Shown here: positions 30,619-58,810 of the stretch, one piece after another
Position numbering within the stretch: the stretch's first letter is position 1
How the letters are laid out: every line of letters starts with the position of its first letter
Origin: Roseateles asaccharophilus
GTDB taxonomy: Bacteria > Pseudomonadota > Gammaproteobacteria > Burkholderiales > Burkholderiaceae_C
Direction of reading: 5' to 3'
DNA length: 64,000 nucleotides
Assembly (NCBI RefSeq): GCF_004362405.1
Contig: NZ_SNXE01000001.1
Coordinates: 682,001 to 746,000, forward strand
Translations under genes and position numbers: made by a program
The notes under the pieces: generated by a model
Seen by the model: only the letters and a program-made list of their open reading frames with translations
Database searches by the model: none
What the model was told of the DNA's origin: nothing

Positions 30619-30690
30619 GCCTGCGCCCCAGAGCCCCCGAGTGCAGCGCCCGACCGGGCGGCCCGACTAGCGAGAAGCGTGTAAGCCACC

Positions 30691-32526: not shown

Positions 32527-34367
32527 AACGCAGACAACTCTTTGCCGGCGCCTTGGCGCCCCTTGCGCCTCTTGCCGCCGCCCTGCTGCTGAGCGGCGCC
32601 GTGCCCCAGGCCCTGGCGAACAAGAGTGAGGCGCCGGCCGAGCCCAAGGTGCTGCGCTATGCCTTCTTGGCCTCCGAGACCGGCTTCGACCCCGCCCAGC
32701 TCAGCGATCTGTACTCGCGCATCGTCACCGGCCATCTCTTCGAGGGCCTGTACAAGTACGACTATCTGGCCCGTCCCTACAAGATCAAGCCCAATGTGGC
32801 GGCCGATATGCCCGAGGTCAGCGCCGACTACCGGACCTGGACCATCAAGCTCAAGCCCGGCATCTTCTTCACCGATGACCCGGTCTTCAAGGGCAAGCCG
32901 CGCGAGCTGGTGGCCGAGGACTTTGTCTACGCCTTCAAGCGCTTCTTCGACCCGGCCACCAAGAGCCCCGTCTACGCCGGCATGGCCTCGATCGGCATGC
33001 TGGGCGTGGACGAGCTGCGCCAGGCCGCGCTCAAGAACAAGAAGCCCTTCGACTACGACACCCCTGTCGAGGGCCTGCGCGCCCTGGACCGCTACACCCT
33101 GCAGATCAAGCTCAAAGAGCCGCGCCCGCGCCTGCTCTTTACCCTGGCGGACAACAGCCTGATGGGCGCCGTGGCCCGCGAGGTGGTGGAGCATTACGGC
33201 GACAAGATCATGGAGCATCCGGTGGGCACGGGGCCCTTCAAGCTCAAGAGCTGGCGCCGCAGCTCCCAGATCGTGCTGGAACGCAACCCCAGCTACCGCG
33301 AGCTGGTCTACGACGCCGAGCCCAATGCCGACGATGCGCGGGCCCAGGAGTTCGCCGCCCGTTTCAAGGGCCGTCGCCTGCCCATGCTGGACGAGGTGCA
33401 CATCTCCATCATCGAAGAGTCGCAGCCGCGCTGGCTGGCCTTTCTGAACGGCGAGTTCGATCTGGTGTCCGTGCCCCTGGAATTCAGCGGCGTGGCCCTG
33501 CCGCACGGCAAGCTGGCGCCCAACCTGGCCAAGCGCGGTGTGCAGCTGGAGCGCGTGCTCAACACCGACCGGGTGCTCTACTACTTCAATATGGAAGATG
33601 CGGTGGTGGGCGGCTACACGGCCGATAAGGTGGCGCTGCGCCGCGCCATCAGCCTGGCCACCGATGTGGGCCGCGAGATCCGTCTGGCGCGGCGCGGCCA
33701 GGCCATCGTGGCCCAGTCCGTGGTGGCGCCCTTCTCCTACGGCTACGACCCGGAGTTCAAGACCGAGAACAGCGACTTCGACCTGCCGCGCGCCAAGGCC
33801 CTGCTGGAGATGTACGGCTACAAGGACCGCGACGGCGACGGCTGGCGCGAGCTGCCCGATGGCAAGCCCCTGGAGATCGAGTACGCCAGCCAGCCCGACG
33901 CGCTCTCGCGCCAGTTCGACGAGCTCTGGAAGAAGAACATGGACGCCCTGGGCGTGCGCTTCAAGATCAAGGCCGGCAAGTGGCCCGAGCAGCTCAAGAG
34001 CGCGCGCGCCGGCCAGCTGCAGATCTGGCAGCTGGGCTATAGCGCCGCCTCGCCCGATGTGCAGGACGGTCTGCAGATCCTCAACGGCCCGGACGCCGGT
34101 GGCCAGAACCTGGCGCGCTTCCGCAACGATCGCTTCGACGCCATCTACAAGCGCATGCAGGAGCTGCCGGACGGCCCCGAACGCCTGGCCCTGCTGCGCG
34201 AGGCGCAGCGCATCACGGTGGCCTTCATGCCGCAGAAGTACACGGTGCACCGCATCATCAACGACCTCAGCCAGCCCTGGCTGATCGGCTACAAGCGCCC
34301 GCCCTTCGGCAATGTCTGGTGGCAGTACGTGGACATTGACGAGAGCAAGCGCGAGACCGCGCGCTGA
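32523..34367 (+). CDS. Peptide ABC transporter substrate-binding protein 3 (family 5)
   Basis: 614 residues from the ATG at 32523 (MKRRQLFAGAL), which overlaps the stop of paralogue 2. An export signal ends PQALANKSEA; MKRRQLF could be Tat-like, although the region is Ala-rich as in Sec signals. Family blocks: LRYAFLASETGFDPAQLSD, KPGIFFTDDPVFKGKPREL, and NMEDAVVGGYTADKVALRRAI. The Pro-Val to Ala-Val change in the last block marks it off from the first two. It ends 8 bases before paralogue 4. Confidence 0.88.
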   Translation: MKRRQLFAGALAPLAPLAAALLLSGAVPQALANKSEAPAEPKVLRYAFLASETGFDPAQLSDLYSRIVTGHLFEGLYKYDYLARPYKIKPNVAADMPEVSADYRTWTIKLKPGIFFTDDPVFKGKPRELVAEDFVYAFKRFFDPATKSPVYAGMASIGMLGVDELRQAALKNKKPFDYDTPVEGLRALDRYTLQIKLKEPRPRLLFTLADNSLMGAVAREVVEHYGDKIMEHPVGTGPFKLKSWRRSSQIVLERNPSYRELVYDAEPNADDARAQEFAARFKGRRLPMLDEVHISIIEESQPRWLAFLNGEFDLVSVPLEFSGVALPHGKLAPNLAKRGVQLERVLNTDRVLYYFNMEDAVVGGYTADKVALRRAISLATDVGREIRLARRGQAIVAQSVVAPFSYGYDPEFKTENSDFDLPRAKALLEMYGYKDRDGDGWRELPDGKPLEIEYASQPDALSRQFDELWKKNMDALGVRFKIKAGKWPEQLKSARAGQLQIWQLGYSAASPDVQDGLQILNGPDAGGQNLARFRNDRFDAIYKRMQELPDGPERLALLREAQRITVAFMPQKYTVHRIINDLSQPWLIGYKRPPFGNVWWQYVDIDESKRETAR

Positions 34368-34375
34368 GCCTGCGC

Positions 34376-36184
34376 ATGCCGGCCATGAGCTGCATCACCC
34401 CGCGTCGCCGCGATCTGTTGCTGGGCAGCCTGGCCGCCGCCGGCGTGGCCCTGCCGGGCGCGGGCCTGGCGGCCACCGGCCGCAAGGTGCTGCGCGTCGC
34501 CTTCCAGACCGCGGAGGTGGGCTTCGACCCGCCCCAGGTCTCGGACCAGACCTCGGTGCACATCAACGCCCATATCTTTGAGCCGCCGCTGTGCTACGAC
34601 CCGCTGGCCCCGGGGGCGGTGCTGCGCCCGCTGACGGCGGCGGCCCTGCCCGAGATCAGCGCCGATGCGCGGCACTTCGTCTTCAGCATCCGGCCCGGCA
34701 TCTTCTTTGCTGACGATCCGGCCTTCAAGGGTCAGCGCCGTGAGCTGGTGGCCGAGGACTATGTCTACAGCATCAAGCGCTTCTTCGATCCGCGCCTGCG
34801 CACCGAGCATCTCTACCAGTTCGAGGGTGCCCAGATCCTGGGCCTGAACGAGCTTCGCCAGGCGGCGATCAAGAGCCAGCGTCCCTTCGACTACGACCGT
34901 CCGGTGCCGGGCCTGCGCGCCCTGGACCGCTACCGTTTCGAGATCCGCCTGGCCGAGGGTGATCCGCGCTTTGTGCACCACTTCGCCAATGCGGGCCTGA
35001 CCGGCGCGGTGGCGCGCGAGGTGGTGCAGGCCTATGGCGAGGAGCTGATGGCCCACCCCGTGGGCACGGGCCCCTTCCGGCTGGCGCGCTGGCGGCGCGG
35101 CTCCCTCATCGTGCTGGAGCGCAACCCCGGCTTTCGCGAGCAGCGCTTTGACAGCGTGGCCCCGCCGGACGATGCCCAGGCCCAGGCCATGGCCGCGCAT
35201 CTGGCCGGCCGGCGTCTGCCCCTGCTGGACGAGGTGCATGTCGCCATCATCGAGGAGTCGCAGCCGCGCTGGCTGGCCTTCCAGGGCGGCGAGCTCGATG
35301 TGCTGACCCTGCCGCCCGGCTTGGCCCCCGTGGTCATGCCCGGGGGGCGGCTGGCGCCGCATCTGGCCAAGCGTGGCATGCAGGCACGCACCAGCCTGGG
35401 TCCCGACGTCAAGTTCACCTTCTTCAACTGCCAGGACCCCCAGGTGGGCGGCAACACGCCCGAGCGCGTGGCCCTGCGCCGCGCCATCGCCCTGGCCTAT
35501 GACAGCGAGCAGGAGATCCGCGTGGTGTTCAAGGGCCAGGCCGTGCCGGCCCAGTCCCTGCTGCCGCCCGTGATCTACGGCCATGACCCCCAGCTGCGCA
35601 GCGAGCTCAGTGCCGCCGACCTGCCGCGTGCCCGCGCCCTGCTGGACATCTACGGCTACCGCGACCGCGACGGCGACGGCTGGCGCGAGCATCCCGATGG
35701 CCAGCCCCTGACCCTGCGCATGGCCGGCACGGCGCACTCCAACCAGCGCGCGGTCAACGAGCTCTGGAAAAAGCGCATGGACGCCCTGGGCCTGCGCATG
35801 GAGTTCGAGACCAGCCAGTTTGGCGAGCTGATCAAGAAGAGCCTGGCCGGCCAGCTGATGATGTGGGGCTTCAGCTGGGACATCAGCGCGCCCGACGGCG
35901 ACTTCTTCCTGGCCATGGCCTACGGGCCCAATGCCGGCCAGTCCAATGACGCGCGCTGGCAGCTGCCGGCCTATGACCGGCTCTACGAGCGCCAGCGCCG
36001 CCTGCCCGACGGCCCCGAACGCCTGGCCGCCATGCGCGAGGCCAACCGGCTGATGCTGGCCTATATGCCCTATATCGCGCACTCCCACGCCATCCGCGTG
36101 GACCTCTGGCAGCCCCGGGTTCAAGGCTACCGCCGCCACCCCTTCAACCGCGACTGGTGGCGCTACGTGGATCTGCAGGGCTGA
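34376..36184 (+). CDS. Peptide ABC transporter substrate-binding protein 4 (family 5), Tat-type signal
   Basis: 602 residues from 34376; a second ATG is at 34385. The signal is TPRRRDLLLGSLAAAGVAL, with a twin-Arg like that of Tat substrates, while the three paralogues upstream look more Sec-like. The mature protein is the most divergent: LRVAFQTAEVGFDPPQVSD, and NCQDPQVGGNTPERVALRRAI in place of NMEDPVVGGYT. It is the last gene of the array. Tat export suggests folding or cofactor loading before transport. Confidence 0.85.
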   Translation: MPAMSCITPRRRDLLLGSLAAAGVALPGAGLAATGRKVLRVAFQTAEVGFDPPQVSDQTSVHINAHIFEPPLCYDPLAPGAVLRPLTAAALPEISADARHFVFSIRPGIFFADDPAFKGQRRELVAEDYVYSIKRFFDPRLRTEHLYQFEGAQILGLNELRQAAIKSQRPFDYDRPVPGLRALDRYRFEIRLAEGDPRFVHHFANAGLTGAVAREVVQAYGEELMAHPVGTGPFRLARWRRGSLIVLERNPGFREQRFDSVAPPDDAQAQAMAAHLAGRRLPLLDEVHVAIIEESQPRWLAFQGGELDVLTLPPGLAPVVMPGGRLAPHLAKRGMQARTSLGPDVKFTFFNCQDPQVGGNTPERVALRRAIALAYDSEQEIRVVFKGQAVPAQSLLPPVIYGHDPQLRSELSAADLPRARALLDIYGYRDRDGDGWREHPDGQPLTLRMAGTAHSNQRAVNELWKKRMDALGLRMEFETSQFGELIKKSLAGQLMMWGFSWDISAPDGDFFLAMAYGPNAGQSNDARWQLPAYDRLYERQRRLPDGPERLAAMREANRLMLAYMPYIAHSHAIRVDLWQPRVQGYRRHPFNRDWWRYVDLQG

Positions 36185-43527: not shown

Positions 43528-44187
43528 TTAGTTGTACAAGGCCGACATCAACGGCGGCAGCACAGCCAGCTGACGCAGCAGCTCGCGGATGCTGGGCGTG
43601 CCGGACTTGGCACGGATGCTCTGGATTTGCGTGCGTACCGTGGAGATGGCAACGCCCTGTTGCTGGGCCACGCCGGCGGGCTCATGGCCGTCGCTCAGGG
43701 CCTTGAGCACCTCGGTCTCGGCCGGGGTGAGACCGTAGCGCAGCGCAAACCACTGCACGGCCAGGGCGCCGCAGAGCTGGCGGCGCTCCAGCACCAGGAG
43801 CACGGCGGCCTGCTCCACATCGCGGTTCAGCGGCACCACCACCACATTCGCCTGTTCGGCCCCTTCGCCCAGGCGCAGCAGGCAGCGCCGGCCCTCGTCC
43901 TCGGCCTGGGCCAGGGCATCGAAGAAGGGCTTGCCGTCCTTGGGACTGCGGGTGCGCAACAGATGGCCCTGCAGCAGCAGCGGATGTCCCTGATTCATGG
44001 CCTGACGGGCAGCGCGGTTGCTGTACAGCACCTCGCCGCGCTGGTTGAGCAGCAGCACGCCATAGTCCAACTCCTCCAGCACCAGGCCCAGCCAGTGGCT
44101 GCTGAGCGAGGCGGCGCTGCGGCGTTCTGGGCGGGCCTGCGGGCCGGGGCCGCGGGACGGCGGCGAGGGGGCGAGCATCTCCAGCAT
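43528..44187 (-). CDS. PAS-LuxR transcriptional regulator
   Basis: 219 residues; GGGAG lies 6 bases before the ATG. A PAS-like region covers about 30-145 (LDYGVLLLNQRGEVLYSNRAARQAM...). The C-terminal LuxR helix-turn-helix is LTPAETEVLKALSDGHEPAGVAQQQGVAISTVRTQIQSI, so it is a LuxR-type DNA-binding protein with a small ligand sensor and not a receiver. It resembles the single-domain PAS-HTH regulators found near Crp/Fnr genes. It is on the same strand as the Crp/Fnr gene, which begins 85 bases further on. Confidence 0.82.
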   Translation of the reverse strand: MLEMLAPSPPSRGPGPQARPERRSAASLSSHWLGLVLEELDYGVLLLNQRGEVLYSNRAARQAMNQGHPLLLQGHLLRTRSPKDGKPFFDALAQAEDEGRRCLLRLGEGAEQANVVVVPLNRDVEQAAVLLVLERRQLCGALAVQWFALRYGLTPAETEVLKALSDGHEPAGVAQQQGVAISTVRTQIQSIRAKSGTPSIRELLRQLAVLPPLMSALYN

Positions 44188-44290
44188 ATTGAACTCCCTG
44201 GTGAGCGGCCGTCACAGCGGCGCGGTTCTTGATGGGGTCAAGCTTAAGGAGGGATGCCCCGCGGCGGCGGTGAATCTTGCTGCCGAACTT

Positions 44291-44305
44291 TGTGAAAAAT
44301 TCACA
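44291..44305. promoter_or_regulatory. Crp-like inverted repeat
   Basis: TGTGAA, AAA, TTCACA: six perfectly paired bases around three As, 104 bases upstream of the PAS-LuxR start. It looks like a Crp-family half-site pair with one base less than the usual spacing and could be bound by the Crp/Fnr protein encoded nearby. Confidence 0.4.
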
Positions 44306-44338
44306 TCGGCGACACGGGTCCCGCCGCAGGTCTGGGGC

Positions 44339-44980
44339 TCAGCGGTCCCGCACAAAGGGATTGCTGCGGCGCTCGGCGCCGAAGCTGCTCTCCGGGCCGT
44401 GGCCGGGGATGAAGACCGTGTCATCGCCCATGGGCCACAGGCGCTGGGTGATGGAGGCGATCAGCTCCGCATGATTGCCGCCCGGGAAGTCGGTGCGGCC
44501 TATGCTGCCGGCAAACAGCACATCGCCCACAAAGCAGCGCCGGGCCGAGGCCGAGTGAAACACCACATGGCCCGGGGTATGGCCCGGGCAGTGGCGCACC
44601 GTCAGCGTCTCGCGGCCCAGGCTGAGCGTGTCCCCGTCTTCCAGCCAGCGCGTGGGCGTGAAGCCCTCGGCCGGCGGGAAGCCGAACATGGCGCTCTGCT
44701 GGGGCAGGCCGTCAATCCAGAACTGGTCACCGCGATGCGGCCCGATGATGGGCAGGCCCTGCTCACGCGCCAGCTGACCCGCGCCGCCCGCGTGGTCGAT
44801 ATGGGCGTGCGTGAGCCAGATCGCCTGGAGCTTGAGCCCGCGTTCGGCCACGGCCGCCAGCAGCCGGGGCAGCTCCCCGCCCGGATCCACCAGGGCGGCC
44901 TCCTGGGTCTGGTCGCACCACAGCAGGGAGCAGTTCTGGGCAAAGGGCGTGACGGGCAGGGTGAGGTAGCGCAGGCTCAT
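44339..44980 (-). CDS. MBL-fold hydrolase, glyoxalase II-like (YcbL type)
   Basis: 213 residues. The metal sites are THAHIDHAGG (HxHxDH), HCPGHTPGH and a late VFIPGHGPES. It keeps the compact YcbL pattern without the C-terminal domain of GloB. These act on S-lactoylglutathione-like thioesters or other esters. It sits 70 bases after the amine oxidase on the same strand, with a palindrome in between. Confidence 0.9.
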   Translation of the reverse strand: MSLRYLTLPVTPFAQNCSLLWCDQTQEAALVDPGGELPRLLAAVAERGLKLQAIWLTHAHIDHAGGAGQLAREQGLPIIGPHRGDQFWIDGLPQQSAMFGFPPAEGFTPTRWLEDGDTLSLGRETLTVRHCPGHTPGHVVFHSASARRCFVGDVLFAGSIGRTDFPGGNHAELIASITQRLWPMGDDTVFIPGHGPESSFGAERRSNPFVRDR

Positions 44981-47373: not shown

Positions 47374-48834
47374 TCAGCGCAGCGTCACGGCAAAGACGCC
47401 CGCGTGGCACAGCGCTGCGCCGGGCGCCATGGCGGCCGGCAGGGGCTGCGCCCGCGTGGCCACCCGGCCGACCAGGGCCGCCTGGGTGGCCGCATCCAGC
47501 CAGATCTGGTGCGCGTTCGCGTCCTCTGTGCCGTCCGGCCCGGCGGCATCGGCCTGCCAGCTCAGCGCCAGTGCGGCATCCAGCGCTGCGCCCGTGCAGC
47601 GCCCCGGCGCGGGCAGGCCCGCGGCGGCGGGGGGCGCGACCAGCGTCAGCGCGCCGCTGGCAATGCCCACGGCCAGGCCACCCCCCGCGCGGCCCAGGGC
47701 CAGGCGCTCGGCGTTGAAGAGGTCCTGCATCTCGGCCATGTCCAGCGCGGCGCGGGTGGCGGACAGGCGCGCCTGGGCCATGGTGGCGGCCTCAGCCGCG
47801 CCGCTCCCGACGCCGAAGCGCGCCAGCAGGGTGCCCCCGAGCTCGCCCATGAGCACGCCGCCGTGGTTGGCCACGGCGTCGCGCCACAGGGTGTGGCATT
47901 CGTCCAGCCAGCGCATCTGCTCGGCGGCGGCCTGGGTGGCGCACATCGCCTGGGCGGCGCTGCGCGGCTTGACGGCCAGCACGACCGCCTCGACACGCTC
48001 GGCCTGCTGCATCACGCTGCTCTCGCTGGCGCGCGGGGCCTGTGCCGCAGCGGCCGCGGTCAGCCGCTGGATCAACTCCCGTTGCTGCTCGCGCAGGCGC
48101 GCCTTTTCCAGGCTGGAGGCCACGCGCGCCTTCAGCAGCGTGGGGTCCACGGGCTTGTGCAGATAGTCATCCGCACCCAGCTCGATGCAGCGCGCCACCT
48201 GGTCCACCGCCTCCACCGAACTCGTCACCACCACCGGCACGTCGCGCAGCTCCGGGTCGCGGGCCATGGCCTCCAGCACCTCAAAGCCGCTCATATGCGG
48301 CATGGCCAGGTCCAGCAGCAGCAGGTCGAAGCGCCGCGTGCGCAGGGCTTCAAGCGCCTGGCGGCCGTCGAGCACGGCCGTGACCTGATGCCCCAGCAGC
48401 TCCAGCGAGCGCACCAGCAGCAGGCGGTTCACCCGGTTGTCCTCGGCCACCAGCAGATGCCCCCGTGTGCCGTGCCGGGGCGGCGCCAGTGCGGTGGGCG
48501 CGGTGGGCGCGGCGGGTGCGGCCATGCCGTCCGGGCGGGGCGCGCTGGGCGGCGTGAACTGGTAGCCCCGCCCGGCCACGGTGGTGATGACGCTGGCGCC
48601 CAGCAGCTTGCGCAAGGCCGCCACCTGAACGCTCAGATTGTTCTCTTCCACCACCACGCCGGGCCAGGCCAGCTGCATCAGCTCGTCCTTGCTCACCACG
48701 CGCTCGCGCCGCTCCAGCAGGGCGCGCAGCACCTCGAAGGCGCGGCTGCCCAGCGCGGCCGGCTCACCGTGGACCAGCACCTGGCGTTGAGCGAGGCGCA
48801 CACAGAAGTGGCCGAAGTCGTGACAGTCAGACAT
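47374..48834 (-). CDS. Response regulator with winged helix, receiver and cyclase-like domain
   Basis: 486 residues. The OmpR/PhoB-type winged helix comes first (about 1-95: [40 protein letters not shown]). A receiver follows (about 127-245), with [27 protein letters not shown] and DYLHKPV. The C-terminal ~210 residues resemble a class III nucleotide cyclase fold ([24 protein letters not shown]) but lack clear metal-binding Asps, so cyclase activity is doubtful. In ordinary OmpR proteins the receiver precedes the winged helix. It overlaps the hybrid kinase by 8 bases and should be its phosphorelay partner. Confidence 0.75.
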
Positions 48835-51800
48835 GGGAGTTCGGTTCGATGAAGGCCCGCAGCGCCGCGACCAGCGGCGCCAGGCCGGTGCTCAGCGTGT
48901 GCAGTGCGGCCGGGTCGGCGGGCAGGCCCTCGTGCTCCAGCACCCGCGCCGCCTCGCCCAGGCCCAGGGCCCCGAAGGTCAGCACATTGCTGCGCAGCGC
49001 ATGGGCCGCGCTCATGAAGCGACCGGCCTCGCCGGCCGCCTGGGCCCGCTCCAGCTCCTGCAGCAGGCCCGGCGCATCCTCGGCAAAGGCCTGCACCAGC
49101 TCGGCCACAAAGTCCTGGCCGGCGCTCTGGCGCAGCCGCGCCAGGATGGCGTGATCGATGAGCGCAGACGCCTGCGCAGGCGCAGGCACCAGCGCAGACG
49201 CCTGCGCAGGCGCAGGCACCAGCGCAGGCGCAGGCGCAGGCGCCCGCGCGCGGGCCGGCCGCCGCAGCGGGCTGGCCGCCAGCACGGTGGCCAGCATGTC
49301 TTCCTCGATGGGCTTGACCACATGCCCGTCCATGCCCGCCTGCAGGCAGGCTTCGCGCTCGGCGGGCAGCACGCTGGCGGTCAGGGCCACGATGCGCGGC
49401 CTGTGCTCGCCCATGCGGCGCACGATCTCGCGCGTGGCGCTGAGCCCGTCCATCTCGGGCATGTGCAGGTCCATCAGCACCAGGTCGTAGGGCTGGCGGG
49501 CCAGGGCGTCCAGCACCTCCAGGCCATTGGCCGCCACATCGGCGCGGTAGCCCATGCGCTGCAGCAGGCGCAGCGCCACCTTCTGGTTCACGGTGTTGTC
49601 TTCGGCCAGCAGGATGCGCAGCGGGTGGCGCGCGGCCAGGCCCTGGGCCTCGGGCCCCTGCTGCGCCCTCGCCGGTGCGCTTGCGGGCGCGGGGCCCGCC
49701 CGGCCGGGGGCGCTGCCCGCCGGCTCATGCGCAGGTCGCTCGCAGGGTGTCGCCCTGATGCTGAAGTGGAAGGTCGAGCCCAGGCCGGGGCCGGCGCTCT
49801 CGGCCCACATGGCGCCGCCCATGGCCTCGGCCAGGCGCTTGCTGATGGCCAGCCCCAGGCCGGTGCCGCCGTAGCGCCGCGTGGTGCTGGAGTCGGCCTG
49901 GCTGAACTTCTCGAACAGGCGCGCGTGGTCGGCCGCGGAGAGGCCGATACCCGTGTCGCGCACGGCAAAGTGCAGGCTGCCGGGCTCCGGCCCCAGGTCC
50001 ACGCTCAGCAGCACCTCGCCCGCCTCGGTGAACTTCAGCGCATTGGCCAGCAGATTGAGCAGCACCTGCCGCGTGCGTGTCACATCGCCGGCCACGGCGC
50101 CGGGCACGGCCTCGTCCACCCGCAGCCGCAGCGCCAGGCCTTTCTCGGCCGCGCGCGAGGCCACCAGATCCAGGGCCGAATCGATGCAGGCGCGCACATC
50201 GAAGGGCTGGGTTTCCACCTCCATGCGCCCGGCCTCGATCTTCGAGAAGTCCAGGATGTCGTTGATGATGTCCAGCAGCGCGTCGCCCGAGGACCGGATG
50301 GTGGCCACATAGTCCAGCTGCACCTCGTTCAGCGGCGTGTCCAGCAGCAGGCCGCTCAGGCCGATCACCGCATTCATGGGCGTGCGGATCTCGTGGCTCA
50401 TGGTGGCCAGAAAGGCGGTCTTGGCCTCATTGGCCGCCTCGGCCTGGCGCTTGGCGCATTCCGCCTGTTCGCGGGCCTCCTGGGTCTCGTTGATCAGGCG
50501 CGCGTTCTTCATGGCCAGCTGGGCCTGGGCCGCAAAGGCCTGCACCACCGCGATCTGCCGGTCGCTGAAGGGGCGCACGGTGCGCCGGATCGCGCTCAGA
50601 ATGCCCACCACCTGGCCGTCGTCCACCAGGGGCACCATCAGGCAGGTCCGCACGCCGCCCCGGTCGGCAAAGCCCGTGGCCACCGCCAGGCCGGCCTTGT
50701 AGGCGGGCGTGTCCATCAGATCGCTCAGATGCACATAGGCGCGCTTGAGCGGCTCGGGGCCCAGCAGATGTTCCAGCGGGAACTCTCTTTGCATATCGAG
50801 CACGGCCTCGGGCCAGTTGCCCAGATCGCCCCAGCCCCCGGCCGGCCGGGCCAGGCTGCCCCGCACCAGCCACAGCCCGCCGTCATCGGCCTCGCACAGG
50901 CGCGCGACCTTGCCCGCAATCGCATGGAACACCGGCTGCAGATTGCCCGGCGACGAGGTGATGACCTGCAGCACCTCCGAGCTGGCGGCCTGCTGCTCCA
51001 GCGCCTCCTGGGTTTCGCGGTACAAGCGCGCGTGCTGGAGCGCGATCACCGCCTGGTCCGCGAAGGACTGGGCCAGCGCGATCTCGCTGCTGGTGTAGCG
51101 CGGCCAGGCCCGCTGCGCGAATAGCCGCGCGATGACCAAGGCCCCGATGACCCGACCCTGCACCACCATGGGCAGCACCAGGCCCGCGAAATTGCCCAGG
51201 GCCTCGGCCACGCGGCGAACGCTGCGGGGCACGTCCGCGCCGTTCAGCGCGTCCGGGTAATGCATGACGCGCCGCTTTTGCACCGCCTCGCCGATGATGC
51301 TGCGGCCCACCGGCTGCGGCAGGTAGTTGCGGGCCATCAGGCGCCCGTGGGGCCCCTGCACGCGGCCGATGCGCATGCTGCCTTCGTCGTCCACCACCAG
51401 CAGGCCCATGTCGGAGCAGGGGATGACGCGCTTGCAGTTCTGCAGAATCTTGTCGAACACCGGCTGGCTGTCTGCCGCCGCGCCCTGAATCACCTTGAGC
51501 ACCTCGGCGCTGGCCTTCAGCGCGGCCGCGGCCTCCTGGGCGGCGGCCTGGCGCTGCGCCAGCGCCTGCTGCAGCGCCGCCATTTCCCGCTGCTGCGCCA
51601 GCGCCAGGGCGGCCTGTGCCGCCAGGGCGGACAGCAGCGCGCCGTGCGCCGCTTCAAAGCGCCCCTGCGGCCCCTCGATATCGGCATACAGGCAGCCCAG
51701 CGGCCCCTCGGGCGCCATCAGGGGCGCCACCAGGCAGCTGCGCTGCCGCTTGGGCTCCGCGCCGGGCGGCCCGTGGCGCAGCCGGCTGGCGCCGCTGTCC

Positions 51801-52087
51801 AGCGCCTCCTGCAGCCAGGGCCCCACGGCGTCGAGCAGGGCCTCGGCGCGCTCCTGGCCCGGCAGGCGTGCGCCGGCGATGGCCGGCGGGCTCAGGCGCG
51901 TTTGCAGCACCAGCAACACCCGCTGGGCGCCCAGCAGCTGCAGCGCCTCGTCCAGCACCGCGCTCAGCAGCGCCGACTCGCGCTTCAAACCCCCAAGCCG
52001 CAGCGGCAGCCGCGCCAGGCGGTCCAGCCTGTCGGGCCATGAGGGGGTGGGGATGCTGCTGCGGGCTGAAGTCGGTTTGCTAGGCAT
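48827..52087 (-). CDS. Multi-GAF hybrid histidine kinase with receiver and HPt
   Basis: 1086 residues from the ATG at 52087; no membrane segment. About three GAF-like domains occupy 1-545 (one around [25 protein letters not shown]). A coiled segment ([21 protein letters not shown]) leads to HisKA with HEIRTPMN, His near 565. The ATPase shows NALKFT, DTGIGLS and [10 protein letters not shown] receiver with [13 protein letters not shown] follows, then a Pro/Ala linker built of 30-base repeats, and a C-terminal HPt with AAHALRSN. The chain holds His-Asp-His, so the coupled regulator should supply the last Asp. The stimulus is unknown, possibly a small ligand bound by the GAFs. Confidence 0.88.
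49161..49243 (-). repeat. Tandem repeat in the kinase linker
   Basis: Two identical 30-base units (49161-49190, 49191-49220) and a partial third. On the coding strand they give repeated Ala/Pro-rich linker residues ([10 protein letters not shown]) between the receiver and HPt. Perfect identity suggests recent expansion and a length-variable tether. Confidence 0.85.
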
Positions 52088-52551
52088 GGGCGCCGGGATT
52101 ATGTGGGCGATTGCCGCCCTCATTGCGGCGGCCCTGCTCGCAAATCACGGGCCGCTGGCGCGCTGTTTCCTGCAGCCGACAGTGCTTCTGAAATCTTGCT
52201 AAACGCGGCCTAAAAGTTCCTAAGGGCGGGGCGCTGGGCGGGCTGTGAGCGCTGCTGCGCAGCGTATCTGGGTCGCTGCTGCAGAGCGGCCGTGAGCTAG
52301 GTTGTGTCAGCTTCAGGCTGGTGACAGTCGCTGGTCCTCGCCACATGAATGGCCGCTCACGACCCGCAGCGGTAGTACAGAGTTCGCAAAGGCAGTTACT
52401 CGACGCGGATGTCTTCTGCGGGCCCTTTCCAGCCACCGACCTACTGCGAAACCGGCCATTCGAAAACTACGGGCGCCGATTTGATAGCTTCTGTTCTAAA
52501 GACGTGCTGAACTGACTTTCTGCTGCTGAGAACAGTGGCTGCAGCCAGTGT
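52088..52551. other. Gene-free left edge of the accessory segment
   Basis: 464 bases from the hybrid kinase start to the end of a small ORF. The base composition moves from GC-rich to more mixed around 52300. Short frames here have no domains, ribosome sites or conserved look, so I count none as a gene. The stretch contains an imperfect hairpin element (52347-52376). Confidence 0.45.
52347..52376 (+). repeat. Imperfect hairpin element, left flank
   Basis: A 30-base stretch with CCGCT and AGCGG arms around a GC-rich loop. It aligns at about 20 of 30 positions, in the same direction, with an element at 56954-56983 on the other side of the accessory gene. An origin as a boundary repeat or degraded intergenic repeat is inference. 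Confidence 0.35.
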
Positions 52552-52725
52552 TCAGGACTGCGCCTGCTTGATGAACAACTCCCATAGGTACTCTGCGGCT
52601 ACCTCTTGAGACGGGTGCTTGTCGCGACCGCCACCCCAGTCCGTCCCTGAACGCGCAGTACGTGTCGTTAGTTGAAGCGCGGCTTGGCACACCCCTTCCG
52701 CGGTCGAGCTTGGGTTGTGCGCCAT
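52552..52725 (-). CDS. 57-residue ORF, divergent from the large HTH-nuclease-NTPase gene
   Basis: A complete minus-strand ORF of 57 residues. GGAGG (52730-52734) lies 4 bases before the ATG, the clearest ribosome site in the region. The product begins MAHNPSSTAEGVCQ and ends with an amphipathic segment (EVAAEYLWELFIKQAQS). It has WGGGRDKHP in the middle. No family is recognised. It shares a 60-90 base control region with the large gene, so it may be a regulator, antitoxin-like or accessory protein of that system. It may also be a fragment of a longer lost gene. Confidence 0.5.
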   Translation of the reverse strand: MAHNPSSTAEGVCQAALQLTTRTARSGTDWGGGRDKHPSQEVAAEYLWELFIKQAQS

Positions 52726-52742
52726 GGTGCCTCCGACACCTG

Positions 52743-52786
52743 ATCGTCTCGGGTCGAGAAACGATGCTCAGACGGTACGTTATTCT
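52743..52786. promoter_or_regulatory. Operator-like inverted repeat and -10 box before the large gene
   Basis: ATCGTCTCG (52743-52751), GGT, then CGAGAAACGAT (52755-52765): an inverted repeat with a two-base bulge. A -10-like TATTCT follows at 52781-52786; no good -35 is visible, which suits an activated or repressed promoter. A transcript starting near 52793 would exclude the GTG at 52789 and supports the ATG at 52813. The XRE domain of the encoded protein could bind here. Confidence 0.4.
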
Positions 52787-52812
52787 GTGTGTGTGTGAAG
52801 AGCCACAAATCA

Positions 52813-55800
52813 ATGCAAGCGCCTCATATGCCCGCGCCCTACCCGGCCTTTGGCGAACTTCTGGCTCGACTTCGCGTTGCTGCCGGGTTCACCAAGCAGC
52901 AAGAGCTGGCAACCGCTCTTGGTGTCACCCAGCAGTCGGTGAGCCGTTGGGAGAGAGGGCTTGCGCGCCCTCGGTTGACCGACATCGCGGTGCTGGAGCG
53001 GCTGGTGCGGGCCAAGGACAACGAACTCCTGGCGGCGGCCGGGTACCAAGCGGCACCTGTGGACGCTCGCGCCGAGACCGCCACCTCGCACGACCGGCCT
53101 CTGCCGCTTTCCGCCCTTCCGCCGGAGACGTTTGAGAGCTTCTGCGCCGCCCTCTTGCACCGGATGTACCAGCCCCACGGAGGCACGGTGCATCGCTATG
53201 GGGGCACAGGGCACAAGCAGCACGGCATCGATATCTTCGCCACCGGCCCCTTCGGCACCCATTCTTTTCAGTGCAAGCGCGTCAATGAGTTCGGCGCCCA
53301 GAAGGTACATACCGCGGTGGCCGAGCAGACCTACGCCGCAGACCTCAAGGTGCTCCTGCTGTCCAGCGTTGCGAGCCCAAGTTCTCGCGATGCGATGGCA
53401 GCCCACGCTGGCTGGGAGTTGTGGGACCGAGAGGACATTACCCGACGGCTTCACGACCTGCCGTTGGTCGACCGCCTCGACCTGGTCGACCGGTACTTCA
53501 GTGGCCAGCGCCTCGACCTGCTTGGCATTGATGAGCCGGGGCCCATTCAGAGTCCCGAGGACTTCTTCAAACCGTTCCTGGTTTCCGACCGCTTCTTCAA
53601 CCACTCCTGGGCGCTCGTCGGTCGCGATGAGGAAATCTCACAGGTTGTTGACTGCGTCCAAGACGAGTCTGTCGTCCTAACGTGTCTCGTAGGTGCACCC
53701 GGCTCTGGCAAGAGTCGTGTTCTACGCGAAGTGACCCAACGGCTTCCACAGAGCACGCCCCTGCATGTTCGGTTTGTGTCTGCGACCGAAGAGGTCAAGG
53801 CCCACCATCTGGACAGGCTGCGCGACAGCCGAGGGTCCGCCACGCTACTCGTCGTCGATGATGCGCACGAACGCGAAGATCTCGGCATCCTCCTCAGGTA
53901 CGCGGCTGTTCCCGAGAACCGCTCGCGATTGCTCCTATCGCTTCGCCCCTATGGGAAAGAAGCGCTGCGGCTGCAGGCTGCCGACGTAAGCCTCTCTGGG
54001 CCTTCGGTCAGATTTGCTGATATGCGTCCGCAGACTCGGGAGCAAGCTCAAGCACTGGCCGAATCCGTCCTCGCCGAATGCAAGGCACCACCAGCAGCGG
54101 CTGTCGAGATTGCGCGCGCAACGTACACCACGCCGCTCGTCACTGTCTTGGCAGCGCAGTTGGTCGCACGCGATGGTGTGTCGCTCGCGCTTCTTGGCAA
54201 TGCAGAGGAGTTCCGTATCTATGTGCTGAGAAGCCTTCAGGACGTCATCACCGTTACCTTAGTTACAGGGCAGGACGTTCCAAGGCTGAGGGCAATCCTG
54301 CGCGTAATCGGACTCCTTCAACCCATCATCCCGGACGACCCAGGCCTGCTCAACATCCTGTTGAAAGCCGAGGGGATAGCGCCGCCGGACGCCAGTCGCC
54401 TAATGCGACTTCTCGGAGAAGCCGGCGTCCTGTTCAAGCGTGGGCTTCGCTCGAGGCTCGCTCCAGACCTGTTGGCCGATGAAATCATTCGCTCGAACTA
54501 CCTCAACGCGGATGGCACAGCCAACGAGCGCGTCACCCAAGTCTTCGACCTCGCCGGTGCGGACCACCTGAAAAACATGTTCGTTAATCTTGGTCGCCTA
54601 GACTGGCGCCTGCGCAGGGGCAAGACAGATGACAGCGCGCTACTGACCAGTCTTGGCCCCAAGCTGCGGTGGGGTGATCGGTACAGCAATCCCCACGTAG
54701 AGGCAGTCGAGGCCGTTGCGTACTATCAACCCAGTTTTGCGCTGGACTTCGCGGAGCGACTCATCGCCGAGGGGCATGGGGACAGCTCATCCGTATGCAA
54801 CATGGTGCGCTACGCGGCGTACACCTACGACCACGTCCAAGAAGCATGTCGGCTGCTGTGGACTGCTGGACGCAACGACGCCCGCGCGCTTCACCAGCAG
54901 CCCAGCCACGGCATTCGAATCCTCAAGGAGCTGGCCGAGTTCCAGTTGAACAAGCCAATCGAGTACGTGCGAGAGGTCGTTCACTTCGCGCTCGCGCTTC
55001 TGGAACGTCCTGCCTCGCTCAAGTCGACTTATACGCCCTTCTCCATTCTGGAAGGAGCGCTGCGGACCGAGATGGAGACGAGGCGCTTCTCCCGCTCGGC
55101 CTTGACCATTACCCGCTACCAACTGCCGTTGGAATGGGCCCGAAAAGTCAGGGACGAAGTAACTAGTGCATTACTCAAGTACCTGCGGGAGGGGCCTCCA
55201 CGACGAGCGTTTCTCTCGGCGCAGACGATAGCCCAGGCCCTGCGGGGGCCTATGCATGGCGGCACGCCCGACCATGCTTGGAAGCAACAGCAAGTAGAAC
55301 TATTGCGAGAACTCAAGGTTGTTCTGAACGAAGTTCACGTGTCGCCCGTCGTCCTGGTTCGGGTCGCGCAGTCCATCTCCTGGCATGCGTTTCACGGCTG
55401 GCCCGAGGCCTCAGTTGAGGCTCAAGCCATCCTCTCCTTGTTGAACAGAGACATTCGGACTCGACTCACACGCGCACTCGTAGACGGCTGGGGGACGGAT
55501 ACATGGAGGCTAAGCGAAGATCTCGAACGCGAAGAACACGTGAAGGACCGTCAACTCCTCACGGCAGATCTCATCGCCGCGTTCCCAGAGCCAAGCCGCC
55601 TGTTTGAAGAACTACATGCCTCCTTGGAGGAAATTGCCACCGTCGCACACGACGGATTTGGGTCGTCGATCTTTCTCGTCAACCATCTACTTGCTTCGGT
55701 AAACGGCCTTGCTACCGAACTCCTCTTGAGGAGCAACGAGGGCCGATCCGGTCGTCTCGAACAGTACGTAGGCGCAGCACTGAGCGCGGTCGTTGAGGCC

Positions 55801-56862
55801 GGCGACTCAAGTCTCGTAAACGAATATGTCATCCGATCAGAGAGGTCCGCTAAGGTGTTGGCGCAGCTCGCTGAGGCGTATATGCGGTTCGAGCCCTCCC
55901 GTCCCTACACGCCCCAAGAAGTGGAGCTGTTCAAGCGCATCTTTGAGTCGAAGGACCCGACCGTTCTATTGTTCGCTTCGAACCTCACTCGCCAGGTGGC
56001 CAGCAGAAGTCCAGCGCTGGCCGTCGAGCTCATTTGTTTGGCGGACTTTGCGGTCAACGCGCGCGCAACTCACGACATGTTCATGTGGCTCTCCGGCGAC
56101 AAGGCTATTTCGGAGGCTGACGTCGCGAGCCGACGGAACGAGTTGCTGAGGAAGCTAGTTGTGCTGAAGGAGCTAGACGACTATTGGGTCCGTGCATTCC
56201 TCGCAGCATCAATCAAGAAAGATCCCTTGTCGGTCATCACGCTGGCTATGGCACGACTCGTGGAAGCGAAACGACGAAACGATTGGTCTTACGAGCCACT
56301 GAGCAAAGAGCACAACGGGAAGGGCCTTGGCCTGATGGAAGTCGAGGCCGGGCCACGGCTATTGCGGGACTTCCTCGACTGGGCCCTCGAAGAGTCGAAG
56401 GTCATTCCGAGCACACGCCAGGTTGGCGAGACAGTCTCCGGCCTTTGCGGAGACTACGGTGAAGCCCTGCTCAACCTTCTGCTTGATTGGATGTCCTCGG
56501 GCACCCAAGCCCATGCCATGCTGGTTGCCAGAGTGCTGCAGGAGAGCCAGCCAGCTCTCATTTATGAACACTCAAAGTTTATCCAGGACATCCTCAACGC
56601 GGCCGAACTCGTTGGCGAGGAAGCTCTGGATGAGATTCGGTCGGCAATCGCCGCGGCAACACACTCCGGAATTCGTGGAGGAACTCCTGGGGAACCGTTC
56701 CCGGAGGACCTCCGAATGGAACAGCACTGCGAGCGGATGTTGGCGTCGCTTAGCCGAGCCGAACCAGCGTTCGACCTATACGACAGACTGCTCAAGGACG
56801 CTCGCTATGCGATAGCGCGTCAGCGCAAGTCAAAGGAAGCTATTGAGGAAGAAGATGACTAG
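52813..56862 (+). CDS. Candidate defence protein: XRE HTH, Mrr-type nuclease, STAND-like NTPase, helical repeats
   Basis: 1349 residues from the ATG at 52813; a GTG at 52789 is less likely and the ATG at 52828 possible. Residues ~13-75 form an XRE helix-turn-helix (ELATALGVTQQSVSRWERGL). Residues ~100-215 match the Mrr_cat nuclease: FESFCAALLHRM, then HGIDI with D140, and FQCKR with Q153 and K155, an intact D...QxK site. A P-loop NTPase follows, GAPGSGKSR (294-302), with Walker B LLVVDDAH (345-352). About 900 residues of mostly helical, repeat-like sequence complete it and probably sense the target. Composition and codon use are far less GC-biased than the neighbours, so it was probably acquired by transfer. 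The layout recalls Avs-type NTPase-nucleases, but I know no named system with an N-terminal XRE domain in this order. Confidence 0.78.
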   Translation: MQAPHMPAPYPAFGELLARLRVAAGFTKQQELATALGVTQQSVSRWERGLARPRLTDIAVLERLVRAKDNELLAAAGYQAAPVDARAETATSHDRPLPLSALPPETFESFCAALLHRMYQPHGGTVHRYGGTGHKQHGIDIFATGPFGTHSFQCKRVNEFGAQKVHTAVAEQTYAADLKVLLLSSVASPSSRDAMAAHAGWELWDREDITRRLHDLPLVDRLDLVDRYFSGQRLDLLGIDEPGPIQSPEDFFKPFLVSDRFFNHSWALVGRDEEISQVVDCVQDESVVLTCLVGAPGSGKSRVLREVTQRLPQSTPLHVRFVSATEEVKAHHLDRLRDSRGSATLLVVDDAHEREDLGILLRYAAVPENRSRLLLSLRPYGKEALRLQAADVSLSGPSVRFADMRPQTREQAQALAESVLAECKAPPAAAVEIARATYTTPLVTVLAAQLVARDGVSLALLGNAEEFRIYVLRSLQDVITVTLVTGQDVPRLRAILRVIGLLQPIIPDDPGLLNILLKAEGIAPPDASRLMRLLGEAGVLFKRGLRSRLAPDLLADEIIRSNYLNADGTANERVTQVFDLAGADHLKNMFVNLGRLDWRLRRGKTDDSALLTSLGPKLRWGDRYSNPHVEAVEAVAYYQPSFALDFAERLIAEGHGDSSSVCNMVRYAAYTYDHVQEACRLLWTAGRNDARALHQQPSHGIRILKELAEFQLNKPIEYVREVVHFALALLERPASLKSTYTPFSILEGALRTEMETRRFSRSALTITRYQLPLEWARKVRDEVTSALLKYLREGPPRRAFLSAQTIAQALRGPMHGGTPDHAWKQQQVELLRELKVVLNEVHVSPVVLVRVAQSISWHAFHGWPEASVEAQAILSLLNRDIRTRLTRALVDGWGTDTWRLSEDLEREEHVKDRQLLTADLIAAFPEPSRLFEELHASLEEIATVAHDGFGSSIFLVNHLLASVNGLATELLLRSNEGRSGRLEQYVGAALSAVVEAGDSSLVNEYVIRSERSAKVLAQLAEAYMRFEPSRPYTPQEVELFKRIFESKDPTVLLFASNLTRQVASRSPALAVELICLADFAVNARATHDMFMWLSGDKAISEADVASRRNELLRKLVVLKELDDYWVRAFLAASIKKDPLSVITLAMARLVEAKRRNDWSYEPLSKEHNGKGLGLMEVEAGPRLLRDFLDWALEESKVIPSTRQVGETVSGLCGDYGEALLNLLLDWMSSGTQAHAMLVARVLQESQPALIYEHSKFIQDILNAAELVGEEALDEIRSAIAAATHSGIRGGTPGEPFPEDLRMEQHCERMLASLSRAEPAFDLYDRLLKDARYAIARQRKSKEAIEEEDD

Positions 56863-56953
56863 CTGAGAGCCGAGCCGATGGCACCGCTTACCCGCCAGGC
56901 ATCGCGGTGCAAGAGGCGTCGCTGCGAGAGCAACCGCTTTCAGGGGAGCATGC

Positions 56954-56983
56954 GAAAGACCGCTCCTGGCCGGAAGCAGTCAT
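56954..56983 (+). repeat. Imperfect hairpin element, right flank
   Basis: About 20 of 30 bases match the left-flank element (52347-52376), including the CCGCT and AGC-GT arms, in the same direction. It lies 92 bases after the large gene. Together they enclose the accessory cargo. Confidence 0.35.
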
Positions 56984-57094
56984 CCCGCTTGGGATCCTGA
57001 CGGACAGCAACCGCTGCAAAGCCGCCCCACCTCACAGCCCAGCCCCCGGTTCTTGACCTCGGCCACCAGTTCAGCACGCCGGTGGCAGCTCGGG

Positions 57095-57166
57095 CAGCGG
57101 GTGCGGGCCTTCGTGGACTACCTCGCCAAGGCGGTCGGCGCCGCCCCAGCCGCCAACTCCCCCTGA
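57095..57166 (+). pseudogene. Possible LysR-family C-terminal remnant
   Basis: The frame ending at TGA 57164-57166 reads QRVRAFVDYLAKAVG, typical of the last helix of LysR substrate-binding domains (RVRAFVDFLAE). No LysR sequence can be traced further upstream; composition shifts there towards the accessory segment. It overlaps the last 49 bases of the GlxA-type gene on the other strand. It may be a gene cut by the insertion of the accessory DNA, or chance. Confidence 0.3.
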
Positions 57167-58149
57167 AACGCCCGCCGCCACTGCTGCGGTGAGGTCTTGA
57201 AGTTGCGCCGAAAGTGCAGCCGCAAGGACTCGGCGGACCCGAAGCCGGCCAGCCCGGCCACGGCCTCGATCGACTGGTCGGTGCGCTCCAGCAGGTTCTG
57301 CGCGCGCTGAAGCCGCTCGGTCAGCAGCCACTGATGCACCGTTGTGCCGGTGATGGTCCGGAACAGGCGGGTGAAGTGGCGCCGGCTCATGCAGGCGGCG
57401 GCGGCCAGGGTGTCGAGCGTGTGGGGCTCGTGCAGGCTCGCGCGCACATCGGCCAGCAGCTGGGAGAGCCGGCTGCTGCCCTGGGTCAGCGGCAGGGGCT
57501 GGTGGATGAACTGGGCCTGACCGCCAGACCGATGCGGCGCGACGACCAGACGCCGGGCCAGCTCCGTGGCCTTGCTGCTGCCCAGGCGCTGGCGGACGAA
57601 CTGCAGGCAGGCATCGATGCCGGCCGCTGTGCCCGCCGAGGTCATGAGGCCGGGCTCCTCGACATAGAGCACATCGGGCAGCAGCTCCACCTCCGGGTAG
57701 CGCGCGGCCATGCGCTGGGCGTACTCCCAGTGCGTGGTGGCGCGCTTGCCGGCCAGCAGGCCCGCCTCCGCCAGGACATGCGCGCCCAGACACAGGCCGA
57801 TCACGTCCGCACCACGCGCATGCGCCTGGCGCAGGAGCTTGAGCAGCGGCTCGGGCGGCCGCTCCTCCACGTCGCGCCAGCTGGGCACCACGATGACATC
57901 GGCCGCCGCCGCTTGCGCCAGACCGCGCAGGCCCGAGAGCTCATAGCCCATGCTGGTGCGCAAGGGCTGGGGCTCCGCGGCACACACAAAGACCTCGAAG
58001 GCCGGTGAGGGCCCGAAGGCTTCACCGAACACCACGCCCGGAATGGCCAGATGAAAGGGGCTGACACCCCGGAAGGCGATCACGGCGACCCGGATCGCGG
58101 GGGGCGCCGCAGCAGCGGCCGCCGCTTGCTTGTTTTCTTTCTTCGCCAT
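57118..58149 (-). CDS. GlxA-type AraC regulator with DJ-1/PfpI domain
   Basis: 343 residues from the ATG at 58149 (MAKKENKQ). The N-terminal ~190 residues are a DJ-1/PfpI-like domain (VAVIAFRGVSPFHLAIPG, GLCLGAHVLAEAGLL with the nucleophile-elbow Cys, and GLMTSAGTAAGIDACL). The C-terminal AraC pair is LAAAACMSRRHFTRLFRTITGTTVHQWLLTERL and EAVAGLAGFGSAESLRLHFRRNF. It is divergent from a cysteine hydrolase gene 118 bases away, its likely target. Confidence 0.9.
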   Translation of the reverse strand: MAKKENKQAAAAAAAPPAIRVAVIAFRGVSPFHLAIPGVVFGEAFGPSPAFEVFVCAAEPQPLRTSMGYELSGLRGLAQAAAADVIVVPSWRDVEERPPEPLLKLLRQAHARGADVIGLCLGAHVLAEAGLLAGKRATTHWEYAQRMAARYPEVELLPDVLYVEEPGLMTSAGTAAGIDACLQFVRQRLGSSKATELARRLVVAPHRSGGQAQFIHQPLPLTQGSSRLSQLLADVRASLHEPHTLDTLAAAACMSRRHFTRLFRTITGTTVHQWLLTERLQRAQNLLERTDQSIEAVAGLAGFGSAESLRLHFRRNFKTSPQQWRRAFQGELAAGAAPTALAR

Positions 58150-58267
58150 CAAGAAGCTGCCATCGAATGGCCCGATCTTGCCGCAAACCATTGTTCAGGC
58201 CAATGGGCGGATCGGCGGCGCGCTCCAAGAATGCAGGCTCAGACCCATTCAACCAAGGCACAACAGC

Positions 58268-58810
58268 ATGAACCGGCCCGCCCTGATCGTCATCGACCTG
58301 CAGAACGACTATTTCCCCGGGGGCGCCTTCCCCCTGCACCAGCCCGACGAGACGCTCGCCAGCGTCCTCGAGGCCATGCGCCGCGCCAGGCAGCAAGGCA
58401 TGCCGGTGATTCACGTCCAGCACATTGCCGATGGCAGCAAGGGCATCTCGCCCTTCTTCAATGCGGGCACCCACGGTGTCGCGATCCACGCGGACGTCCT
58501 GGCTGCCGTGCCCGAGGCGCCCGTCGTCATCAAGCACTTTGCCGACAGCTTCGAGCAGACCACGCTGCACGAAACCCTGCAGCAGCTGCAGGTGAACGAG
58601 CTGCTGCTGTGCGGCATGATGACCCAGAACTGCGTGACCCACACCGCGCTCTCGCGCCGGGCCGACCTGTACCGCCAGGTCACGGTGCTGAGCGATGCCT
58701 GCACCACGGTCAGCCCCATGCTGCATGCCATCGCCCTGAATGCCCTGTCCACCCGGGTCCGTCTGGCGACGGTGGCCGAGGCGCTGCCGGGCGCGCCCGA
58801 GGCCCGCTAG
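58268..58810 (+). CDS. Isochorismatase-family cysteine hydrolase
   Basis: 180 residues from the ATG at 58268 (MNRPALIVIDLQ); the frame is open upstream over the regulator. The family Asp is in VIDLQNDYFPGG, the Lys in VVIKHFADSF, and the nucleophile Cys in CGMMTQNCVTHTA. These give the D-K-C triad of cysteine hydrolases (nicotinamidase, isochorismatase, N-carbamoylsarcosine type). Substrate is not set by sequence. The divergent GlxA-type regulator is the probable controller. Confidence 0.88.
   Translation: MNRPALIVIDLQNDYFPGGAFPLHQPDETLASVLEAMRRARQQGMPVIHVQHIADGSKGISPFFNAGTHGVAIHADVLAAVPEAPVVIKHFADSFEQTTLHETLQQLQVNELLLCGMMTQNCVTHTALSRRADLYRQVTVLSDACTTVSPMLHAIALNALSTRVRLATVAEALPGAPEAR

Follow-up and report, generated by a model that had tools for sequence, protein, structure and literature searches.

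The window analysed here is a 64,000-nucleotide stretch of the Roseateles asaccharophilus genome (contig NZ_SNXE01000001.1, positions 682,001 to 746,000), and the gene of interest lies at 52813-56862, where a single protein of 1349 amino acids (aa) combines an XRE-type helix-turn-helix (HTH), an Mrr-type nuclease domain, a STAND NTPase and a long helical solenoid. The gene is preceded by a palindrome that is predicted to be its operator. The reading frame is open from a GTG at 52789, and a start at the ATG at 52813 gives the 1349 aa. A first-pass annotation, made from the sequence and its reading frames, had called these four parts and had placed D140, Q153-x-K155, the P-loop and Walker B; Pfam, structural models and a 17-row alignment agree on every one of the four calls, and the residues sit where they had been placed. 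The gene and its parts are as follows.

52813..56862, + strand: main gene, 1349 aa, with XRE HTH, Mrr nuclease, STAND NTPase and helical solenoid (Pfam, alignment, AlphaFold2 models)
52846..53028, + strand: XRE/434-repressor-like HTH, residues 12-72 (Pfam HTH_31, E 5.3e-10, above cut-off; family profile against 434 chains)
53098..53445, + strand: Mrr-type PD-(D/E)XK nuclease domain, residues 96-211, with D140, Q153 and K155 (Pfam Mrr_cat, alignment, model)
53599..54552, + strand: STAND NTPase module, residues 263-580, with Walker A to K300 and Walker B at D349-D350 (fold matches, alignment)
54553..56682, + strand: helical HEAT/ARM-like solenoid, residues 581-1290, probable sensor (model, fold matches)
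56683..56859, + strand: C-terminal tail, residues 1291-1349 (identity by segment)

Domain architecture and predicted structure

Pfam recognized the nuclease at residues 100-211 (Mrr_cat, E 1.4e-5, above cut-off), where the motif of the window protein reads D140 and Q153-C-K155. The NTPase part gave two matches below the cut-off (AAA_16 at 268-326, E 7.4e-7; nSTAND_NTPase5 at 280-376, E 6.3e-6), and R378 is a further residue in this part that fits the motifs named in the first-pass annotation. No family name for the whole protein came from PADLOC, NCBIfam or PDB sequence searches, and PADLOC matches to RmrA were not taken as identity, as their coverage was the HTH alone. A likeness to XRE antitoxins appears among the matches of the window protein and the family profile of the HTH. 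The same profile matched a 434 derivative (E 5.6e-8) and 434 repressor chains (E 7.3e-7 and 8.3e-7), and the domain has the HTH fold and Q-Q recognition helix of XRE 434-type repressors.

AlphaFold2 models, built from alignments of 15 sequences, covered residues 1-580 (predicted local distance difference test, pLDDT, 83.7) and residues 440-1349 (pLDDT 87.3). The first model opens with an HTH bundle (helices 11-75) and continues into the nuclease part, which consists of a helix at 104-122, strands at 125-128, 141-145 and 148-155, a helix at 162-171, a strand at 178-183, a helix at 189-196 and a strand at 201-204, an order that we take to be the Mrr PD-(D/E)XK core. D140 borders one strand and K155 closes the following one, and as modelled this part has the core fold with the D...(E/Q)xK of Mrr and PD-(D/E)XK nucleases, cleavage itself being a prediction. 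The nuclease call had been made to depend on the presence of such a core, and both the model and Pfam Mrr_cat show it. A P-loop NTPase and then helical parts come next, and this modelled succession of P-loop, Walker B and helical modules is the STAND/NLR arrangement.

The best PDB match to the 1-580 model by E value in Foldseek was Avs4 bound to a phage portal protein (8dgf, E 4.8e-8). A second aligner placed Apaf-1 first by Z score (16.8; root-mean-square deviation, rmsd, 5.5 over 289 residues, model 246-580), with Avs5 (Z 16.0, rmsd 3.6, 187 residues) and the MalT complex 8bob (Z 13.9) also among the matches. These results are consistent with the Avs-type layout proposed in the first-pass annotation, as is the second model, in which the C-terminal stretch that had been read as helical is helix almost throughout. 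That model matched HEAT/ARM solenoids (SF3B1, PP2A-A, importin-type, CAND1) at Z scores up to 11.6, values that helical repeats reach without kinship, and because of this the solenoid is called HEAT-like only; a Pfam HEAT_2 match in one relative (L002) was below the cut-off. No Avs entry appeared among the C-terminal fold matches listed, which excludes nothing.

Relatives and conservation

More than 20 relatives were found, in Proteobacteria, Actinobacteria, Acidobacteria and one Verrucomicrobium (loci and genomes are identified by our L and G numbers where they must be told apart). The genome collection contributed 15 loci, from a search confined to stretches matching either of two short peptide patterns, and 2 relatives occurred among 72,556 plasmid records. 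Viral contigs gave one match, to the same prophage as L029 (L029 and L039 are prophage-borne), and a phage collection of 50,697 records gave none. Surveys of genomes found the gene in 4 of 398 for the phylum (own and one fragment counted), 3 of 399 for its own order (own counted), 2 of 397 for one order (both already known), 2 of 18 for one family (both known from the phylum survey) and 5 of 242 for one genus, L032's genome again among these. In a protein search at family level 17 of 299 genomes were listed, but 14 of them match only inside residues 4-126 at the HTH end; the real relatives are the gene itself and two incomplete copies, a C-terminal fragment (G238) and a remnant (G003). G485, G764 and G1495 likewise contain fragmentary, remnant or broken copies, the copies L036 and L054 are truncated by a contig end and L003 is frameshifted in the HTH.

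In the alignment of 17 rows, window included, D140, Q153, K155, K300, D349, D350 and R378 are kept in every row, and this retention of catalytic and Walker residues is therefore not due to chance. The HTH residues are kept in 16 rows, the exception being L038 (Verrucomicrobiales), which lacks the HTH; L054 (G370) likewise starts at the nuclease and has no XRE domain. Conservation in the more distant rows is lowest at residues 850-1290, within the fast-evolving solenoid, and the last 60 residues are better conserved than the preceding stretch in proteobacterial rows, though not in actinobacterial rows. The conservation by segment fits a predicted sensor under changing demands, without proving it.

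Two further features of the relatives should be noted. The Paraburkholderia copy has ATT at L025 10001 where relatives have the ATG start, and the remaining frame is open. At L033 14020-14343 and L037 13966-14286 the main gene shares its 3' end with the overlapping frame of a 106-107-aa protein, judged by eye to have likely membrane helices; the L033 protein has no Pfam match.

A palindrome ahead of the start codon

52777..52792, no strand: predicted operator ACGTTATTCTGTGTGT, 20 nt before the ATG at 52813 (loose motif; fails the strict motif)

The palindrome was first noticed on reading the upstream DNA of 16 loci, distant relatives included, and the form noted then was GTACAC-N8-GTGTAC or ACxC-N7-GxGT. 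L049, L051, L052 and L053 were read next, and two motifs were written afterwards, a loose one (AC-N-Y-N7/8-R-N-GT) and a strict one (AC-N-C-N7/8-G-N-GT), each searched for over the 60 nt upstream of the start. Of the intact XRE-bearing loci 18 of 18 have the loose motif, compared with 2.4 on average and at most 7 in 400 dinucleotide shuffles; 285 of 5276 random 60-nt windows of the same loci match it (182 of 2382 when AT-matched). The strict motif is present in 16 of the 18, against a shuffle average of 0.37 (at most 3) and 77 matches among 5273 random windows. Six loci were left out of this count (L028, L039, L053, L003, L038 and L054); the site is present in both L028, a near copy of L027, and L039, which is the same as L029, and the XRE-less L038 and L054 have no site within 150 nt of the start. 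The strict form as noted beforehand recurs in three of five later loci (L051, L052 and L074, not L049 or L053), where shuffles predict 0.003 to 0.08 per locus, and L074, found afterwards, has two strict sites.

Seven close beta/gamma loci have a spacer of 8, the others one of 7. The distance from the end of the nearest site to the chosen start codon is 4 to 23 nt, the start codons of L035 and L051 having been picked by comparison. L031 has a TTGACA box 16 nt ahead of TACACT, which overlaps the palindrome. An extended form of the window pattern has only two matches in its own 4.36 Mb genome, one of them at the main gene, and any effect of the operator is for that reason probably local. The palindrome fits a fused autorepressor, with binding as a prediction from sequence, and the receptor probably controls its own production. 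The suggestion in the first-pass annotation that the XRE domain could make the system self-repressed thus gains evidence, as the palindrome stands before intact XRE-bearing relatives and before neither of the two XRE-less ones. What is new here is this conserved palindrome and its match to a fused repressor-type HTH.

A second set of palindromes, TGAGTTATAG...CTATAACTCA, in three Bradyrhizobium-like loci was considered as the same operator and rejected, being of different sequence and beside a Fic gene. These repeats lie in the stretch that separates the main gene from a divergent Fic gene (L051 ~14060-14150, L052 9800-9970 and L053 8850-9010; Pfam assignment on L052's copy) and are possibly the Fic protein's own operators.

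Composition, transfer and selection

The gene is rare, has moved horizontally and evolves under purifying selection. Its guanine plus cytosine (GC) content of 0.603, and of 0.690 at third codon positions (GC3), contrasts with 0.71-0.73 and 0.88-0.95 in three neighbours, in accordance with the less GC-biased composition remarked on in the first-pass annotation. The window copy is 92% identical to a Polaromonas copy (L024), and in a midpoint-rooted tree two Pseudomonas rows group with Polaromonas, Paraburkholderia, Pseudoduganella and the window (support 100/100), while Thiomonas and a second Pseudoduganella copy fall outside that group. The exact place of the Pseudomonas rows inside the group, beside L026 (Pseudoduganella), is weak (82/76). 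The extent of the match to Polaromonas and the two remnants within it are as follows.

52420..56979, no strand: block matching Polaromonas L024 8565-14167, minus L024 8793-9830 (1038 bases), with the joint at 52644-52647 (blastn)
52555..52647, - strand: remnant, last 31 codons of a divergent ThsB-like TIR gene (tblastn 81% identity, E 5.7e-10; blastn 87% over 228 bases)
52644..52717, - strand: remnant, N-terminal part of a divergent 77-aa membrane-type gene (tblastn E 6.1e-7; joint against L024)

The tested flanks of the block have no blastn match to L024. Against the Polaromonas copy the ratio of nonsynonymous to synonymous substitution rates (dN/dS) is 0.216 overall, 0.172 for the NTPase part and 0.213 and 0.273 for two parts of the solenoid, and the Mrr domain has the lowest value of the large segments (0.047). 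A 19.9 kb stretch of a congener (G075) was compared as an empty site, and the shared stretch covers window 57093-58804 alone, with 43528-44980 matching elsewhere in G075; because the stretches match at separate places the locus in G075 is rearranged and not a cleanly empty site.

A large hybrid histidine kinase lies beside the insert at 48827-51988. A search of 29 other relatives gave it no match at E 1e-200 or better, and because of this it may be accessory too.

The divergent TIR and membrane-type genes

The remnants correspond to a divergent gene pair upstream of the main gene in L024 and in L026. The first member encodes a protein of 77 aa that has a single probable membrane helix (judged by eye) and no Pfam match, and is present also in L025 and L030. 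The second encodes a TIR protein of ~316 aa, of which the L024 copy matches Pfam TIR_2 and PADLOC ThsB1|ThsB (E 2.6e-148). Between L024 and L026 the dN/dS is 0.13 for the 77-aa gene and 0.12 for the TIR gene. In the window the start of the 77-aa gene is fused to the end of the TIR gene, and the 1038 bases of L024 sequence between are missing. Because the window keeps these joined remnants of both divergent genes, the main gene, as far as sequence can tell, probably once belonged to a unit of three genes and has outlasted the other two. The description of the locus as a single-gene system therefore holds for its present state, in which there is one gene, but not for a past in which the scar records a deleted pair.

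Neither the 77-aa nor the TIR gene was found by tblastn in the Pseudomonas loci. An assignment to Thoeris would call for an intact ThsB and a ThsA; the window has only a TIR scar, and ThsA was not recognized by eye among its listed genes, so that the locus does not qualify. ThsA was likewise not recognized in the flanks of L024 or L026, which were read by eye and not with a model search. The ThsB-like TIR and 77-aa genes of L024 8700-9913 and L026 8694-9902, with no ThsA recognized nearby, are a possible two-gene system.

Gene neighbourhoods

Several relatives lie near genes of known defence systems. GajA and GajB (Gabija) with a HEPN/RES protein are upstream in L002; a CBASS cyclase, E1-E2, JAB and SAVED effector with AbiH adjoin L031; Old and PDC-S73 are near L032, and an AbiEii-type gene is near L036. 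A CAP12-type TIR is downstream in L027, and a RES-domain gene (L049 12786-13622) begins ~270 bases downstream of the main gene; several lineages have TIR or RES genes as neighbours. Phage genes and a gene like that of a Type II methyltransferase lie upstream in L029, and integrase or recombinase genes are near some relatives (judged by eye; the L035 integrase by Pfam). The PADLOC scans of neighbours were selective, the first matching in 9 of 10 of a set chosen for a defence-like look. The window copy is chromosomal, and a mobile element was not recognized among the listed genes.

Elsewhere in the window, four similar extracytoplasmic peptide-binding-type proteins are encoded in tandem at 28729-36184, adjoined by genes for ABC transporter permease and ATPase components on the opposite strand (all judged by eye).

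Proposed mechanism and alternatives

We consider it probable that the gene encodes a single-polypeptide NLR-like immune nuclease, working in an Avs4-like manner and carrying its own repressor, the defence activity being what we infer from its parts. Two HTH domains would bind the 15-16-bp palindrome just before the gene's own start codon and repress it, and this repression would keep a dangerous nuclease scarce. The solenoid would bind a phage or mobile-element protein, the NTPase would then assemble into an oligomer, and the Mrr domains would pair and cut DNA, such that the infection is stopped or the cell killed. Oligomerization or loss of DNA would free the operator and raise expression. 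Where beta-proteobacteria retain the divergent genes, this operator would also control the TIR and membrane-type pair. A more specific version is offered tentatively, in which a resting dimer on the operator silences itself and, in beta-proteobacteria, the divergent TIR and membrane-protein arm, until trigger-driven NLR-type assembly pulls the HTH off, producing positive feedback and switching on the second arm as Mrr cuts DNA.

A number of observations weigh against this account. The window and L049 fail the strict motif, the XRE-bearing but broken gene of L053 has neither motif and L003, with a frameshifted HTH and an unclear start, has no motif in the 60 nt (18 of 20 loci have the loose motif when these two decayed copies are put back). 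The loose form was written after four of the five later loci were known, such that its presence in 4 of 5 is not a clean test; in several loci the palindrome is only partly symmetric, and its regulator could be a different protein. In the two nearest relatives no segment is less identical than the HTH (81 and 75% identity), and its dN/dS against L024 is 0.398. PADLOC family matches are confined to the HTH or P-loop parts, and the second aligner's match to Avs4 (Z 13.5, 337 residues, chain 3-417 against model 95-483) has an rmsd of 14.5, which means that separate domains of the model are matched and the whole arrangement is not. The first-pass annotation had asked whether homologues sit in defence islands, and while some do lie beside Gabija, CBASS/AbiH, OLD or TIR genes, the flanks of the window copy, read by eye, are ordinary-looking genes with no defence island; a second PADLOC scan of neighbours matched in 2 of 10 and gave nothing in 8 of 10.

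The HTH could instead be a targeting or sensing domain that recognizes phage operators or repressors and brings the nuclease to invading DNA in a restriction-like manner. A 434-like HTH and a DNA nuclease in one chain would suit such a role, and for the prophage-borne L029/L039 superinfection exclusion would make sense. However, the palindrome stands by the start of the gene itself in 18 of 18 loci of one test and again in L074, the extended pattern occurs only twice in the window's genome, a site at its own gene would lay the host chromosome open to cleavage and the NTPase is NLR-type by fold and not a known translocase; we regard this role as unlikely. There is also little to recommend a toxin-antitoxin-like maintenance module, in which XRE is an in-cis antitoxin to an Mrr toxin and the whole stabilizes mobile elements or plasmids. 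The HTH does resemble XRE antitoxins, and two relatives are on plasmids with others near integrase or recombinase genes, but one chain cannot be lost by halves, a ~770-residue solenoid with a STAND NTPase is better suited to ligand sensing and the window copy has a low dN/dS despite its chromosomal position with no mobile element recognized. Lastly, a STAND regulator of transcription resembling MalT, with an Mrr domain that is incidental and only binds DNA and with no immune role, would account for the operator-like site and the 8bob fold match (MalT being a STAND protein that regulates transcription in the passages seen of PMC10427625), but is highly improbable given the nuclease D, Q and K kept in 17 of 17 rows, an Mrr dN/dS that is the lowest of the large segments, an N-terminal DNA-binding domain where that of MalT is C-terminal, and a patchy distribution (4 of 398 phylum genomes) ill-suited to a housekeeping regulator.

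The gene bears on the question of how bacteria keep lethal NLR-like receptors quiet. As far as the excerpts of the published accounts extend, the regulators in print are separate proteins: CdxB acting on lypABC (PMC13236601), CapK/CapS, RptR and BrxR. A fused repressor matched to its own site would make the question addressable in one gene, with regulation separable from killing, and XRE-Mrr-STAND together with AC-N-Y-N7/8-R-N-GT provides a signature for finding more such genes.

Comparison with known systems

A literature search, mostly of papers outside subscription and judged from titles, the starts of abstracts and passages, did not recognize a described XRE-Mrr-STAND protein. The NLR-like LypABC of Caulobacter, with a CARD, is also repressed by an XRE regulator, although in the parts seen of PMC13236601 this regulator, CdxB, is a separate protein acting in trans, whereas here the HTH is in the same chain. 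MalT, a STAND protein that regulates transcription, is described with a C-terminal DNA-binding domain (PMC10427625, in part). In Thoeris the likeness is to ThsB, which the divergent TIR gene of L024 matches; of that TIR gene the window keeps only 31 codons.

The 434 operator is ACAA-N6-TTGT, and the family's palindrome has the same AC...GT ends. The T-Q-Q at the start of the recognition helix is common to the family's HTH and the 434 repressor by profile match, and the two glutamines aligned here presumably contact the 434 operator. Unlike in 434, the repressor domain is fused to a nuclease-NLR, the half-site is ACnY and the spacer is 7 or 8.

With Apaf-1, plant and animal NLRs and Avs5 the window protein has in common the NTPase and the helical module that follows (Z up to 16.8, ~290 residues); to our knowledge these proteins have other effector and sensor domains and none has a built-in repressor. 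Avs4 (8dgf) has the nuclease and then the NTPase in the same order as the window protein by the second aligner, and its nuclease is Mrr-type. Its sensor is a TPR, unlike the HEAT-like solenoid of this family, and its chain begins by alignment at the nuclease, where the XRE-Mrr-STAND family has an XRE domain ahead. The NCBIfam Avs4 model (NF041815) gives the window protein 8.5 bits against a cut-off of 1500, so that by this curated model it is not an Avs4. Avs1-Avs4 nucleases cut phage and host DNA on recognizing phage proteins, according to passages of PMC12931631. Because its nuclease, NTPase and solenoid follow the plan of the Avs/bacterial-NLR kind, the gene belongs to that kind, within which the curated model makes it distinct from Avs4.

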